The translations under genes and the position numbers were made by a program. A model generated the notes under the pieces. The model was not told the origin of the DNA, did not search any database, and worked only from the letters and a program-made list of their open reading frames with translations. Below are positions 11,906 to 22,033 of a stretch of 64,000 bases of DNA, in pieces; positions within the stretch are counted from its first letter, which is position 1; each line of letters starts with the position of its first letter. This DNA comes from Maribacter sp. MJ134 (GTDB lineage Bacteria; Bacteroidota; Bacteroidia; Flavobacteriales; Flavobacteriaceae): contig NZ_CP034570.1 of NCBI RefSeq assembly GCF_003970695.1, forward strand, positions 248,001 through 312,000. The letters run 5' to 3'.

Positions 11906-12733
11906 ATGGAAACAGTAGGACAATGGAAAGATCTTATATTTGAGACATTGGGCTCAATCTTAAAGGATATTGCTTCGGCACTACCCGGCATTTTTGGCGC
12001 CTTTGTAGTGTTGTTATTCGGATGGATTACGATAAAAATAGTCTCTTTTATCGTTAAAAAAATCCTTAAAATAGCCAAGGTAGAAGTATTATCTAACAAG
12101 GTAAACGACGCAAAACTTTTCGGAGACTCTGACATAAAGATAGATATAGCCAAGGTACTCCTAAGTTTTATAAAGGGTGTGTTATGGTTGGTATTCATAA
12201 TCGTTGCCGCAGATGTAATGAACTTAAAGATTATCTCCAGTGAGATAGCTAATCTATTAAGGTACCTTCCCATACTATTGTCCGCCCTCATCATTTTCAT
12301 GATAGGGCTGTATTTGGCAAAAGCCATCAAGAACACGGTTACCACGGTTTTTGAGTCTATGGACTTGGGCGGTGGCAAGATGTTGGGCAACGTTCTTTTC
12401 TATATGATAATAATTTTTGTGAGTATTACCGCGCTCAATCAGGCAGGTATTGATACGACCATAATTACTAGTAATTTCACTATAATATTAGGTGCTTTTC
12501 TTTTTGCTGCTGCCTTGGCGTTAGGTCTAGGTTCTAGAGAAGTGGTGGGTGACCTGCTACTAACCTTTTATACGAGAAAAATTTATGAAGTGGGGGATAA
12601 GGTTAAAATAGGTAAAATAGAAGGTAGGGTAGAGGCTATCGATAATATTTCTGTTATTGTTAAAACTAAATCCGGTAAGGTAGTTGTTCCCATCAAAAAA
12701 GTGGTGAATAAAACCGTTGAGGTAGAAGATTAA
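11906..12733 (+). CDS. MscS-type mechanosensitive channel protein
   Basis: The 275-residue membrane protein has an N-terminal helix (ALPGIFGAFVVLLFGWITIK) of the kind repeated in conserved-TM-helix channel proteins, further helices at about 85-110, 115-140 and 170-190, and the pore-lining third MscS helix (AAALALGLGSREVVGDLLL) followed by the start of the beta domain (VGDKVKIGKIEGRVEAIDNI). The cytoplasmic C-terminal domain of full MscS is mostly missing, so the protein stops after the beta domain. It should release solutes under hypo-osmotic stress. It is the third gene of a run with the sigma factor and the 65-residue protein. Confidence 0.85.
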   Translation: METVGQWKDLIFETLGSILKDIASALPGIFGAFVVLLFGWITIKIVSFIVKKILKIAKVEVLSNKVNDAKLFGDSDIKIDIAKVLLSFIKGVLWLVFIIVAADVMNLKIISSEIANLLRYLPILLSALIIFMIGLYLAKAIKNTVTTVFESMDLGGGKMLGNVLFYMIIIFVSITALNQAGIDTTIITSNFTIILGAFLFAAALALGLGSREVVGDLLLTFYTRKIYEVGDKVKIGKIEGRVEAIDNISVIVKTKSGKVVVPIKKVVNKTVEVED

Positions 12734-16789: not shown

Positions 16790-19700
16790 CTACTTGGAAA
16801 TTATCAAGGATTTCACGTTGGTTGTGGCACCCTTTGTTATTTGCACATAGTAGATGCCGTTATCTAGGAACTCAAGGTTCAAAAACGCTACCGTACCATA
16901 ATTGTTGCCGTAGTCCTTTTCAAACACCATTTTCCCGTCGCTACTGAATATCAGTATTGAAACATCACCCACATCGGGCATGTTCGCCAAGTTCAAACTC
17001 AACTCACCGGATGTAGGGTTTGGATAGATTATGACATCCATTTCCCCTTGCGCCCGGTCTTTAGAGAGCTCTGCTTGGAGATTTGTGGCTGCCGATAAGA
17101 AGGAGCCAAAGACTTGGAACTCGGATAGCCCTACATTGGGACCAACGCCATCCGTTACCTCAAAACGTACCGAGGTTATATTTCGTTCATTGAAAGTTAC
17201 AGGTAGTGCTCCGCCATTTGCGGGCAAATTCCCTACTTGCACGACACTACCATCGGAGAATACCAGCCTACCGGCATTGATGTTCTCATTTATCAAAGGT
17301 CTGTCAAAAAGCACGATTCTATCCGTTCTAATGGGTTGGTTCCAGTTCAGAGTAACGCTTGGTCGCTGCTCGCCAAGACTAGCCCATTCCCCTGGGTCTA
17401 CCAATCCAATTATACCGTCTACGATTTTCCTCTTGGCAAATCGAGCAGAGAATTCTGAAGATGCCGTAATACTACTGGCCTGAGGTGCTATATTCGTAGT
17501 TGGTGTGGCAGCAAATTGGCTACCGGAAAATTTTCCATAGACCTCGAACTCTGCTAGCCCCACGCTGTAACCTTGCCCGTTTGTAATATCAAACTCTACC
17601 CAGGTAATCGTCTTTTGTTGAAAGTTTATGATATTAGCCGTACCTGAATTTTCTAGACCGTTAACATTGACCGTACTTCCATCGCTGAATTTTAGTACGC
17701 CTTGAAATATAACATCTACTACATTAGGTCTGTCGTAAAGTACAACTTGGTTTGTGGTCACCGGTCTGTCCCATGTAAGTCTAATACTTGGGTTCTGTTC
17801 TCTAAAACTTGCCCATTCCCCTGGGTCTACAAATCCAGTGATACCGTCCACTAGTTTACTTTTTGCATATCGTGTGGAGAACTCCGAGGATACGGTTATG
17901 CTGCTGGCTTCCGGTGCCAGGTTGGTACCTGTAACCGTTGGCGGTACGGCCGCGAATTCGCCAAAGACTTGGAACTCCGACAGCCCTACGTTGGGACCAA
18001 CGCCATTGGTCACCTCAAAACGTACCGAGGTAAAGATGCGTTCGCTAAAGTCCACTATTAAGGCACTGCCATCGGTGGGTAGGTTTCCTACCGCTACGAC
18101 ACTGCCGTCGGAGAATACCAGTCTACCGGATAAAATATTCTCGTTAAACAAAGTTCTGTCAAAGAGCACAATTTGACTCCCGATCACCGGTCTGTCCCAG
18201 TTCAATGTTACGGTAGGCTTCTGCTCACCGAGACTTGCCCATTCACCGTTACCGAACTGGCCTGTAATACCGTCCACGAGCTTGTCCTTGGAAAATTGCG
18301 CGGAGAACTCCGAGGATACGGTAATGCTGCTGGCCTGCGGTGCCAGGTTGGTGCCTGTAACCGTTGGTGGCACGGCCCCGAATTCGCCAAAGACTTGAAA
18401 CTCCGCCAGCCCTACATTGGGACCAATACTATTGGTCACCTCAAAACGCACGGAGGTAAAGGTACGTTCACTGAACGATACCAAGAAGGCACTGCCATCT
18501 GTGGGCAGGTTTCCTACCGCTACGACACTACCGTCCGAGAATACCAGCCTACCGGATTCGATGCTCTCGGTAAGTATAGGTCTGTCGTACAAGACGATTT
18601 GGCTCGCGATCACTGGTCTGTCCCAGTTCAATGTTATGGTAGGGTTCTGCTCGCCGAGACTTGCCCATTCACCGTTACCGGGCTGTCCTGTAATACCGTC
18701 CACAAGTTTATCTTTGGAAAATTGTGCCGAGAACTCCGAGGATACGGTAATGCTGCTGGCCTCCGGTGCCAGGTTGGTACCGGTAACCGTTGGTGGTGCG
18801 GCCCCGAATTCGCCAAAGACTTGAAACTCCGCCAGCCCTACATTGGGACCAATGCTGTTGGTCACCTCAAAACGCACGGAGGTAAAGGTACGTTCACTAA
18901 AGGATACCAAGAAGGCACTGCCATCGGTGGGCAGGTTTCCTACTTCTACGATACTACCATCGGAGAATACCAGTCTACCGGATTCGATGCTCTCGGTAGG
19001 TATAGGTCTGTCGTACAGTACTATTTCGTTGGCGATCACCGGTCTGTCCCAGTTCAATGTTACGGTAGGGTTCTGCTCGCCGAGACTTGCCCATTCCCCA
19101 TTACCGGGCTGTCCTGTAATACCGTCCACGAGCTTGTCCTTGGAAAATTGCGCGGAGAACTCCGAGGATACGGTAATGCTGCTGGCCTGCGGTGCCAGGT
19201 TGGTACCGGTAACCGTTGGTGGTGCGGCCCCGAATTCGCCAAAGACTTGAAACTCCGCCAGCCCTACATTGGGACCAATGCTGTTGGTCACCTCAAAACG
19301 CACGGAGGTAAAGGTACGTTCACTAAAGGATACCAAGAAGGCACTGCCATCGGTGGGCAGGTTTCCTACTTCTACGATACTACCATCGGAGAATACCAGT
19401 CTACCGGATTCGATGCTCTCGGTAGGTATAGGTCTGTCGTACAGTACTATTTCGTTGGCGATCACTGGTCTGTCCCAGTTCAATGTTATGGTAGGGTTCT
19501 GCTCGCCGAGACTTGCCCATTCCCCATTACCGGGCTGTCCTGTAATACCGTCCACAAGTTTATCTTTGGAAAATTGTGCCGAGAACTCGGAGGATACGGT
19601 AATGCTGCTGGCCTCTGGGGCCAGGTTGGTACCGGTTACGGTTGGTGGTGTTACGCCAATCTCGCCGAATACTTGAAATTCTGACAGCCCTACATTGGGA

Positions 19701-22033
19701 CCAATACCATTGGTTACCTCAAGACGTACGGACGTAATGGTACGTTCGCTAAAGGATATTAATGTCGCACTACCATCTGTAGCTAAATTTCCTACTTCTA
19801 CGACACTGCCGTCGGAGAATACCAGTCTACCAGATATAATTCTCTCGAAGGCTGTAGGTCTGTCAAAGAGTACTATCTCACTGGTTTTTACTGGTCTGTC
19901 CCAATTTAAGGTTATAGTTGGGGTCTGCTCACCAAGACTTGCCCATTCCCCTGCACCGAACTGGCCTGTAATACCGTCCACGAGCTTGTCCTTGGAAAAT
20001 TGTGCGGAGAACTCCGATGATACGGTAATGCTGCTGGCCTCGGGTGCTACATTGTTTCCACTAACCGCTAGTGGCGATGTTGCGGTGTATTGGCCAAAGA
20101 CCTGAAATTCCGCCAGCCCTACGTTGGGACCAACGCTGTTGGTCACCTCGAAACTTACGGAGGTAAAGGTGCGTTCGCTGAAGTTTACCAAAAAGGCACT
20201 GCCATCGGTGGGTAGGTCTCCTACCGCTACCACACTGCCGTCTGAGAATACCAGTCTACCGGATACGATGCTCTCGGTAGGTATGGGTCTATCGTATAGT
20301 AGAATTTGGCTCGCGATCACCGGTCTGTCCCAGTTCAATGTTATGGTAGGGTTCTGCTCACCGAGACTTGCCCATTCACCGTTACCGGGCTGTCCTGTAA
20401 TACCGTCCACAAGTTTATCTTTGGAAAATTGTGCCGAGAACTCGGAGGATACGGCGATACCGGCCTCCGGGGCCAGGTTGGTGCCGCTTACCGCAGGAGG
20501 TGTTGTCGTAGCGTTACCGTTGCCTACCAATACGGTTTCTGCCATACTGGGAACTCCATTGGAATTTAATGCAAAAAGCATGTAATTACCAGGAGGCATA
20601 ATGTTGGCGTTAGGAACATTGATGGTGTACTGATTGCCGTTTTTTGTATAGCTTACAGGTACCCTGCGCTGCTCATTATTGGTACTATGGGTCGCGGAGG
20701 ACATTCTTATAAAGGAAAACGCTCCAATATCATCGGAACCTGTTACCGTAAACTGTTGGTCAAAGCCAGCGGTTGCAGGTGCGTTCAACGTAGGGCGTTG
20801 TGCTAGATTTCCGTTTCCGTCAAAAAGATAGGGCGGGCTATATATCTCAGCATCAAGATGGTTCTGACTTCCGCCGCCGAAAAAAAGACCACCCCCACCA
20901 ACAAAGACTCTACCATCTGTCATCAGAATGGATACACTATGGTATGTCCTAGGTATTTGCATCCCTGCCACGGTTCTCCAACTATTGGTCTGTGGGTTCC
21001 AGATTTCCGCTTCAAAACGTGCCCCGGTATCGGTAAAAACGCTAGAGGTGCTTATACCTCCGGTAACCACTACCTCTCCGTTGGGCAGCACTACGCTGTT
21101 ATGATAGGATCGGGATAATTGTAAGTTGTTGGCCGTAGGGCTTACGGTTACGTTGTTCTCGTTATTGATATCGATTACGAAAGAGTTGTCCTTGGAGGGA
21201 AAGCCCTGTTGATAATTCAAAGCACCCCCTACCTTTAAAATCTTACCTATATCGTACATGATGGTGGTACCTGTAATGGAAAAGGTATCATCCGCTCTTT
21301 TACCGGCAAAGGTAGACGAACCATTTCCGCGTACATCAAACCAGTGCATATCTTCACTTGGTCCGGCATGAAAAATTTTACCGTTGGGAGCTACCCAGAC
21401 CCATGCATGGTCGTTGGGTCTTATAGGATTGCCTTGCAGATCGTTATCATTATAAAGAATAGTTCCCGGTAGTCCTGGTAAACTGACCCAACCTTGTCCT
21501 TTCGTCCAAATTTCTCCAAGTTTTCCGGAGAAACCGCCGTTCCATTGACCTCCAATGGTGAACGCTCTGCCGTCTGGTAAGGTCACGTTTCCTTGATACC
21601 CTCTTGGTACGTTCATATCATCGGAAACCTCCCATGAATTCGTTGCCACATTATAGATGGTCGTTTTTGGCGCGGAACCGCCACCGGCCACCAAGATATC
21701 CCCGTTGGCTAGATTATTGATTCCCGGACAGAACATATTGTGATTGTTCGGGGTTATTTGGGTTCCTAATGCCGTACCATTGGGCCCTTGAAAAGGATCG
21801 TAGATTTCTGTATACGTGTTTCCGTCAGCGGCATCAAAACCGGCATCCCTAAATCGGGATGACCAGGTCAATAGACGACCATCTGGTAGGTTTGCTACGG
21901 CAACAGGTACAAGCCCAAATTGAATAGGTTCGCTCCACTGGCCATCTTGGCTTGGGTTCTGCCCCAAGATACTTCCCCATACGAGGAGTAAGCCTAGTGA
22001 AAATAATTTTGTAATGGTGTAATGTTTTTTCAT
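16790..22033 (-). CDS. Secreted galactose-oxidase-like copper radical oxidase with eight discoidin-like repeats
   Basis: The 1747-residue protein has a signal peptide (ending about SILGQ), a kelch-type catalytic region (residues about 30-505), eight repeats of about 142 residues, and a C-terminal type A T9SS sorting domain (last 85 residues, YPNPTSGELSLN). The catalytic region follows fungal galactose oxidase closely, and every copper-radical residue is in place: Cys102 in MFCPG and Tyr146 in PRGYQ (the thioether pair), Trp164 in GGQWNGG (stacking Trp), Tyr364-His365 in RTYHS, and His449 in SATHS. The family oxidises primary alcohols, or aldehydes in glyoxal oxidase, to aldehydes or acids with O2, making H2O2. 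The repeats resemble F5/8 type C or CBM32-like modules (DGITG, EWASLGEQ, ITLNWDRPV) and probably bind polysaccharide. The substrate is unknown. Confidence 0.9.
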   Translation of the reverse strand: MKKHYTITKLFSLGLLLVWGSILGQNPSQDGQWSEPIQFGLVPVAVANLPDGRLLTWSSRFRDAGFDAADGNTYTEIYDPFQGPNGTALGTQITPNNHNMFCPGINNLANGDILVAGGGSAPKTTIYNVATNSWEVSDDMNVPRGYQGNVTLPDGRAFTIGGQWNGGFSGKLGEIWTKGQGWVSLPGLPGTILYNDNDLQGNPIRPNDHAWVWVAPNGKIFHAGPSEDMHWFDVRGNGSSTFAGKRADDTFSITGTTIMYDIGKILKVGGALNYQQGFPSKDNSFVIDINNENNVTVSPTANNLQLSRSYHNSVVLPNGEVVVTGGISTSSVFTDTGARFEAEIWNPQTNSWRTVAGMQIPRTYHSVSILMTDGRVFVGGGGLFFGGGSQNHLDAEIYSPPYLFDGNGNLAQRPTLNAPATAGFDQQFTVTGSDDIGAFSFIRMSSATHSTNNEQRRVPVSYTKNGNQYTINVPNANIMPPGNYMLFALNSNGVPSMAETVLVGNGNATTTPPAVSGTNLAPEAGIAVSSEFSAQFSKDKLVDGITGQPGNGEWASLGEQNPTITLNWDRPVIASQILLYDRPIPTESIVSGRLVFSDGSVVAVGDLPTDGSAFLVNFSERTFTSVSFEVTNSVGPNVGLAEFQVFGQYTATSPLAVSGNNVAPEASSITVSSEFSAQFSKDKLVDGITGQFGAGEWASLGEQTPTITLNWDRPVKTSEIVLFDRPTAFERIISGRLVFSDGSVVEVGNLATDGSATLISFSERTITSVRLEVTNGIGPNVGLSEFQVFGEIGVTPPTVTGTNLAPEASSITVSSEFSAQFSKDKLVDGITGQPGNGEWASLGEQNPTITLNWDRPVIANEIVLYDRPIPTESIESGRLVFSDGSIVEVGNLPTDGSAFLVSFSERTFTSVRFEVTNSIGPNVGLAEFQVFGEFGAAPPTVTGTNLAPQASSITVSSEFSAQFSKDKLVDGITGQPGNGEWASLGEQNPTVTLNWDRPVIANEIVLYDRPIPTESIESGRLVFSDGSIVEVGNLPTDGSAFLVSFSERTFTSVRFEVTNSIGPNVGLAEFQVFGEFGAAPPTVTGTNLAPEASSITVSSEFSAQFSKDKLVDGITGQPGNGEWASLGEQNPTITLNWDRPVIASQIVLYDRPILTESIESGRLVFSDGSVVAVGNLPTDGSAFLVSFSERTFTSVRFEVTNSIGPNVGLAEFQVFGEFGAVPPTVTGTNLAPQASSITVSSEFSAQFSKDKLVDGITGQFGNGEWASLGEQKPTVTLNWDRPVIGSQIVLFDRTLFNENILSGRLVFSDGSVVAVGNLPTDGSALIVDFSERIFTSVRFEVTNGVGPNVGLSEFQVFGEFAAVPPTVTGTNLAPEASSITVSSEFSTRYAKSKLVDGITGFVDPGEWASFREQNPSIRLTWDRPVTTNQVVLYDRPNVVDVIFQGVLKFSDGSTVNVNGLENSGTANIINFQQKTITWVEFDITNGQGYSVGLAEFEVYGKFSGSQFAATPTTNIAPQASSITASSEFSARFAKRKIVDGIIGLVDPGEWASLGEQRPSVTLNWNQPIRTDRIVLFDRPLINENINAGRLVFSDGSVVQVGNLPANGGALPVTFNERNITSVRFEVTDGVGPNVGLSEFQVFGSFLSAATNLQAELSKDRAQGEMDVIIYPNPTSGELSLNLANMPDVGDVSILIFSSDGKMVFEKDYGNNYGTVAFLNLEFLDNGIYYVQITKGATTNVKSLIISK
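17085..20490 (-). repeat. Eight discoidin-like coding repeats, 426-nt period
   Basis: Eight tandem units of about 142 codons within the copper radical oxidase gene start with NLAP(E/Q)ASSITVSSEF and end with the GLxEFQVFG motif. The middle units (about 18.4 to 19.7 kb) are nearly identical in DNA, while the C-terminal two (17.1 to 17.9 kb) and the N-terminal one have diverged. This suggests recent amplification of the core. Boundaries are approximate. Confidence 0.85.

Follow-up and report, generated by a model that had tools for sequence, protein, structure and literature searches.

Why would a marine flavobacterium build, in one chain, a copper radical oxidase, a row of binding-type modules and a secretion tail, and what would such a protein oxidise? 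The gene that raises this question is found in Maribacter sp. MJ134, on a stretch of 64,000 nucleotides, the whole of which is called here the window (NZ_CP034570.1, positions 248,001 to 312,000). Its parts are laid out as follows (positions in the window):

16790..22033, minus strand: whole oxidase gene, 1747 aa (open reading frame with ATG start)
21962..22033, minus strand: N-terminal stretch resembling a signal peptide, roughly residues 1-24 (judged by eye)
20798..21961, minus strand: catalytic domain, kelch propeller, roughly residues 25-412 (Pfam, phmmer, model, Foldseek)
20528..20797, minus strand: GO-like Early set domain, residues 413-502 (Pfam)
21728..21730, minus strand: Cys102 codon, GalOx Cys228 (alignment)
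21596..21598, minus strand: Tyr146 codon, GalOx Tyr272 (alignment)
21542..21544, minus strand: Trp164 codon, GalOx Trp290 (alignment)
20939..20944, minus strand: Tyr364-His365 codons, GalOx Tyr495 and His496 (alignment)
20687..20689, minus strand: His449 codon, GalOx His581 (alignment)
20078..20479, minus strand: module 1, DUF7402, CBM32-like (Pfam, repeat comparison, Foldseek)
19652..20053, minus strand: module 2 (Pfam, repeat comparison)
19226..19627, minus strand: module 3, chosen for the structure model (repeat comparison, model)
18800..19201, minus strand: module 4 (repeat comparison)
18374..18775, minus strand: module 5 (repeat comparison)
17948..18349, minus strand: module 6 (repeat comparison)
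17522..17923, minus strand: module 7 (Pfam, repeat comparison)
17093..17494, minus strand: module 8 (repeat comparison)
16799..17029, minus strand: T9SS type A sorting tail, residues 1669-1745 (Pfam, NCBIfam)

An oxidase of a known kind

Among PDB entries searched with phmmer, the best match of the window protein is the galactose oxidase of the bacterium Pseudoarthrobacter siccitolerans (9g8h/9g43, 8.7e-129), and fungal galactose oxidase 1gof (4.6e-96) and Streptomyces GlxA (4unm, 7.6e-30) come after it; by sequence, kinship with galactose oxidases is far beyond chance. Propeller and Early set domain are both present, according to Pfam (Kelch_6; GO-like_E_set at 413-502, 2.7e-19), to Foldseek and to an AlphaFold2 model of the catalytic part built on alignment A1 of 25 sequences (pLDDT 90.9, pTM 0.92). 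The top Foldseek match of this model is again 9g43 (TMq 0.92, 1.7 Å, 45% identity), followed by fungal AA5_2 enzymes (TMq 0.86-0.93), then by GlxA (0.80-0.82) and glyoxal oxidase (0.81). The corresponding E values run from 7.4e-56 to 5.0e-44 for AA5_2 entries and, for GlxA together with glyoxal oxidase, from 4.8e-33 to 5.3e-30; they place the protein nearer to AA5_2 than to the two others. The superposition on fungal galactose oxidase called for by the original prediction gives TMq 0.92 to 1gof at 38% identity, with the same fold and active residues, and it is only indirectly, via superposition, that the model would bring Cys, Tyr and His together. Judged by sequence and model, the enzyme belongs to a known kind, AA5_2.

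Membership of GlxA and of glyoxal oxidase was considered and rejected. NCBIfam model NF052501, which has its cut-off at 800 bits, gives 136.9 (the fold match to 4unm being TMq 0.81 at 20% identity), Glyoxal_oxid_N stays below cut-off, and both score far under the galactose oxidases. The belief that bacterial members are few is contradicted by 386 stretches encoding relatives, retrieved with two peptide patterns from a single collection comprising 84,980 species genomes (the genes are fewer than 386, one gene being able to bear both patterns), by the bacterial structures 9g43 and 9g8h, and by the published GlxA and FbfB. Bacterial AA5 enzymes also exist outside both subfamilies, according to a section of PMC11267884 that refers to an AA5-CE3 protein from a Burkholderia. 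AA5 annotations of Flavobacterium and Sphingobacterium proteins appear in a portion of PMC4666044, with OmpA and MotB proteins as best matches; as described in that portion, they do not look like the galactose-oxidase family discussed here.

What sets the window protein apart from relatives of solved structure is its layout. The matched part starts at chain residue 141-142 in 9g43/9g8h and at residue 159 in 1gof, whose discoidin domain is presumably a single N-terminal copy. In the window protein, by contrast, the N-terminal CBM32 domain that is common but optional in AA5_2 is absent; the catalytic domain comes first, and eight C-terminal modules and the T9SS tail follow.

A complete set of active residues

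Residues C102, Y146, W164, Y364, H365 and H449 align with C228, Y272, W290, Y495, H496 and H581 of galactose oxidase (GalOx), which we take to be its active site; for W290, this agrees with the titles of PDB mutant entries. All four copper-ligand positions (GalOx Tyr272, Tyr495, His496, His581) are filled, as are, at the residue level, those of Cys228, which forms the thioether, and Trp290, which lies over it. The six residues, the same as originally predicted and shared with 9g43/9g8h, are identical in 80 of the 80 bacterial rows of the alignment, a set biased toward close kin because its named loci stem from the top matches among the 386 stretches. These rows comprise 70 named loci, obtained from the best 80 stretches, along with seven second copies found in those loci and all three copies of the MJ134 genome; the peptide patterns used for fetching exclude the six residues. 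Trp at GalOx 290 is missing in four of 34 aligned relatives (G372, G442a, G442b, G356), all outside the family. Such a residue set suggests that the window protein would load copper and form the Cys102-Tyr146 thioether bond.

Could the catalytic part be inactive and the protein an adhesin? It stands among giant T9SS proteins and PorP/SprF genes, and the conserved cysteine at GalOx 515, present in 1gof, is lost in the window copy alone, in one row out of 80, which would suit this reading. Yet the six active residues are kept and all other cysteines gone, as expected under selection for the site: Cys102 is the sole cysteine among 1747 residues, and relatives carry from 3 to 52 per frame in 100 frames counted (59 in one further frame). 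We consider an inactive adhesin highly improbable.

Positions that may bear on the substrate are less uniform. Compared with 1gof, GalOx 329 and 333 are changed, to Ile and Asp respectively. This change, together with the inclusion of alcohol oxidases in AA5_2 and with TM values of 0.91-0.92 to 5c86 and 6ryx, would fit an AA5_2-type alcohol or aryl-alcohol oxidase with a small-molecule substrate. It is nevertheless an improbable alternative: Arg330 is retained (73 of 80 rows have it, window protein included), the protein stands closest to bacterial galactose oxidases, and eight binding-type modules would be odd in such an enzyme. Arg330 by itself leaves the substrate unsettled, since fungal 6ryx, presumably an aryl alcohol oxidase, shares it in the alignment.

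Eight modules and a sorting tail

The modules start at residues 519, 661, 803, 945, 1087, 1229, 1371 and 1514, a period of 142-143 aa. Modules 3 and 4 share 97% DNA identity, and divergence is greatest in modules 7 and 8. Pfam recognizes eight stretches of DUF7402 (1.4e-242) as well as F5_F8_type_C above cut-off (9.8e-19), and together with Foldseek on a single-module model derived from the eight repeats (pLDDT 78, residues 16-35 poorly modelled) indicates a discoidin beta-sandwich. The nearest structures are carbohydrate-binding modules, mostly of family 32, several of them solved with galactose or GalNAc; 2j7m, 2j1e and 2v72 match at TM 0.68-0.69, and the first match is a chitosan-binding module (TM 0.66, 7.2e-6).

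In contrast to this likeness in fold, one repeat searched by sequence has no match in the PDB. Likewise, phmmer at 1e-5 finds none among the ORFs of 86 loci (some being one place under two ids), and in the MJ134 genome only the eight repeats inside the window gene itself; Pfam reports weak DUF7402 in L024 and L057. The idea that the DUF7402 array is a trait of the oxidase family was rejected on these grounds.

At the C-terminus, Por_Secre_tail (PF18962, residues 1669-1745, 3.1e-12) and the NCBIfam T9SS type A sorting domain TIGR04183 are both above cut-off. By this tail the protein would be T9SS type A cargo, probably exported to the cell surface. The architecture first proposed, a secreted copper radical oxidase of galactose-oxidase type with a full active-residue set, eight discoidin-like modules and a type A sorting domain, is thereby upheld, Pfam/NCBIfam, phmmer, model and alignment being in agreement.

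Paralogues and relatives

An enzyme of this type had been considered new for a marine flavobacterium, but the gene is no solitary case among them. Besides the window copy, MJ134 has two more, whose catalytic parts are 56% and 54% identical to that of the window; at E 1e-20 and with MJ134 counted each time, the oxidase is found within the genus in 9 of 36 genomes, and in samples of the family and of the phylum in 10 of 199 and 5 of 395 genomes, respectively. The 70 named loci include Flavobacteriaceae, Saprospiraceae, Leucothrix, cyanobacteria and Burkholderiales. Non-catalytic parts vary among relatives (LamG, F5/8, Big_2, PKD, PA14 and others). A T9SS tail is borne by all scanned flavobacterial copies with a complete end (the copy of locus L055 runs off its contig), and in genome G000 three of the 13 T9SS type A tails, 11 of which are above cut-off, belong to oxidases.

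Copy 2 of MJ134 (L022:4821-9929) carries an in-frame stop at codon 698, inside its LamG domain, past which the frame is open to the T9SS tail; this may be a decayed gene, a sequencing error or readthrough. In Maribacter halichondriae, loci L098 and L102 have identical catalytic domains at different sites, one capsule-linked and one not, and this identity suggests gene conversion.

Capsule export genes beside the paralogues

The only Wza gene of the MJ134 genome lies 3.9 kb from oxidase copy 3. This company recurs: among the 17 oxidase-bearing genomes of the family and genus samples, all of which have Wza, 22 of 31 oxidase genes stand within 5 kb of it, in 14 genomes and six of nine genera; the three other genera lack this proximity. 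Random placement would give 0.145 such genes, a figure that ignores relatedness. The phylum matches G356, G372 and G442 stand outside the 17-genome count, and a Wza row below cut-off (G603:C423) outside the 5-kb count. The proximity is not shared by T9SS cargo in general: within 20 kb of Wza we find 5 of 7 oxidase tails versus 0 of 57 others, a count made by hand on the complete set of 64 T9SS type A tails from G000, G591, G018 and G129. Neighbouring genes encode Poly_export/SLBB (Wza), Wzz/AAA_31 (Wzc), Polysacc_synt_2 (CapD), CpsB_CapC, DegT aminotransferase and Bac_transf.

Wza, Wzc or CapD is also found in 20 of the 70 named loci, all of Flavobacteriaceae or unplaced Bacteroidota, in a set that overlaps the 17 genomes and in which many flanks stop at contig ends. 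Among the 20 named loci outside the flavobacterial clade, there is no Wza match except a weak one in L115 (Cupriavidus sp. YR651, not a member of Bacteroidota), where Wzc-like (141 bits) and Wza-like (57 bits) matches lie within about 8 kb of the oxidase gene; these matches do not enter the count of 20 loci with Wza, Wzc or CapD.

Is this proximity only inherited gene order, with no bearing on function? In a tree made by a quick method, the capsule-linked rows sit in one 36-row clade, with seven sigma-operon-linked rows and three others; since most linked copies share one clade, the capsule linkage may have arisen once or a few times. The sigma-factor operon, another neighbourhood that recurs, resembles an inherited site. 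It is near the oxidase in 15 of 70 named loci (L056-L058, L061, L064, L067, L075, L077, L084, L087, L096, L099, L100, L102, L110) and consists of an ECF sigma factor, 186-aa and 364-aa proteins with no Pfam match and a 241-aa lipoprotein-like protein. We rejected this operon as proof of function and read it as an inherited site, because its own flanks are conserved too. Around Wza, however, the arrangement differs among genera: Wzc, CapD or the aminotransferase adjoins the oxidase, sometimes on both sides. Mere inheritance is a serious possibility, to which we give clearly less than an even chance. What is new here is the genomic company, an oxidase beside the capsule exporter, and not the kind of enzyme.

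The window copy in its surroundings

The window copy itself lies 1.2 Mb from Wza, outside the 5-kb criterion for a capsule-linked oxidase, and in the same tree it groups with L055 (99*; 69-70% identity), outside the capsule-linked clade. A PorP/SprF gene flanks it on one side and a giant T9SS protein of type B on the other; an OmpA/PD40 gene and giant proteins bearing CHU_C type B signals are also among its neighbours. The scanned window ORFs are 25 of at least 250 aa, excepting 11906-12733 and the overlapping plus-strand frames 18173, 47261 and 48725; among them there are no capsule genes near the oxidase, and no SusC/SusD, glycoside hydrolase, lyase or sulfatase families. At window positions 22870-51463, giant type B proteins of the T9SS stand in a row (1970, 1978, 2790 and 1990 aa, three with Calx-beta repeats), and the DNA has tandem arrays whose units, of 360 and 309 bp, match at 95-98%.

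These surroundings leave room for the same enzyme to act outward, oxidising galactose-containing polysaccharides of algae or other organisms, or releasing H2O2 as a weapon, its modules binding foreign glycans. A CBM32-like array fits foreign glycans as well as own ones, capsule genes are missing nearby, and the genus Maribacter is known from algal surfaces. On the other side stand the location of the paralogues at export loci and the lack of SusC/SusD and degradative families in the scanned ORFs. We consider outward action unlikely, though by no means negligible. Action on the cell's own matrix is carried over to the window copy by analogy with its paralogues, because this copy is far from Wza and outside the capsule clade, and for this copy it has an even chance of being right.

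A metal-efflux neighbourhood is found with the closest relative. In three of 70 named loci (L055:4121-9531, L081:4064-9485 and L095) the oxidase has a divergently oriented CusB/CusA-like pair beside it, which we count in favour of a copper enzyme, Pfam supporting both L081 genes and the CusB-like gene of L055, tblastn the rest. The tree forces two changes of this label; L079 and L086 have only weaker CusA-like matches near the edge.

Oxidases fused to a peroxidase-like module

The L055 oxidase, the closest relative of the window copy among the best 80 of the 386 stretches, is fused to a di-haem peroxidase-like module. Its chain runs from the oxidase through a propeller to a region with two CxxCH motifs, which matches the CCP_MauG and RoxA-like models and, in the PDB, hydrazine synthase gamma and di-haem peroxidases. 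The same layout is found in L121, L123 and L124 (Sphaerotilus, Aquabacterium), and CxxCH was checked by eye or script in these four loci only:

L055:9935-15460, oxidase-propeller-di-haem fusion
L121:7625-15163, oxidase-propeller-di-haem fusion
L123:9830-15430, oxidase-propeller-di-haem fusion
L124:9782-15172, oxidase-propeller-di-haem fusion

In the Burkholderiales family to which the genome of L124 belongs, 9 of 150 drawn genomes have the oxidase, and in 9 of these 9 a propeller-haem module is located in an open frame that agrees with the oxidase frame in length, strand and contig. By its sequence, the fused chain is likely to be a maker and a user of H2O2 in one. In the Burkholderiales fusion rows Gly replaces Arg330, which may mean a different substrate. 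The CxxCH haem motif is absent from the window protein, and a search of the MJ134 genome for a stand-alone version of the di-haem module of L055 gives one weak match (2.0e-5). Propeller-haem modules are also found in frames apart from the oxidase (G622:C6, G693:C11:948494 and G736:C6:37634, one with an inner TAG) and therefore occur with other partners.

Parts of two papers describe comparable pairs: a fungal copper radical oxidase with a peroxidase (PMC9770985), and GlxA working with the peroxidase DtpA in Streptomyces (PMC4736821). There the partners are separate proteins, whereas L055 and its Sphaerotilus counterpart unite them in one chain. Among the matches listed for di-haem peroxidase literature, galactose oxidase is absent.

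A possible role in the cell's own polysaccharide

We propose that the window protein is a T9SS-exported AA5_2 oxidase of the cell surface acting on the cell's own exported polysaccharide, an explanation that, taken whole, we judge equally likely to hold or to fail. The N-terminal propeller, bearing the copper site with its Cys102-Tyr146 cofactor, would convert a primary alcohol and O2 into an aldehyde and H2O2; the likeliest such alcohol is C6-OH on a galactose-type residue. The eight C-terminal CBM32-like modules would hold the enzyme on a polysaccharide, most likely the surface polysaccharide that the cell itself exports. Aldehydes formed there could cross-link the matrix, and H2O2 would be a by-product or feed a peroxidase. 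As far as sequence tells, the chemistry of the Maribacter enzyme is ordinary; its delivery, module array and genomic company are unusual.

Precedents come from other bacteria. According to PMC11022532, GlxA, likewise a copper radical oxidase, acts with the cellulose synthase CslA in Streptomyces and is in this way linked to polysaccharide synthesis. In Stigmatella, as stated in part of PMC3543389, the galactose-oxidase-like gene fbfB adjoins a glycosyl transferase and is required for fruiting bodies; the likeness drawn here is one of gene context and description. In openly licensed literature, which leaves most subscription journals outside, nothing joins galactose oxidase with Flavobacteriaceae, type IX secretion, Maribacter or Pseudarthrobacter, and only work on Vibrio genomes matched galactose oxidase with capsule and Wza.

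Extended to the family, the proposal becomes a more tentative and rather doubtful one: in Flavobacteriaceae, oxidation would be coupled to the capsule, T9SS-displayed paralogues with swapped C-terminal modules oxidising galactose-type sugars of their own polysaccharide. Aldehydes would cure the matrix and H2O2 would be used by peroxidases, fused in some lineages; the window copy would be the member with an eightfold matrix-binding array.

The natural role of galactose oxidases is called elusive in the same part of PMC3543389. An oxidase that recurs beside a capsule exporter, sometimes beside metal-efflux genes, and that in some relatives is fused to a peroxidase-like module suggests one theme, the oxidation of the cell's own polysaccharide, common to GlxA-CslA and perhaps FbfB. 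Its role becomes testable by gene deletion in an ordinary marine bacterium. Moreover, natural oxidase-peroxidase fusions and module arrays would be useful biocatalysts.
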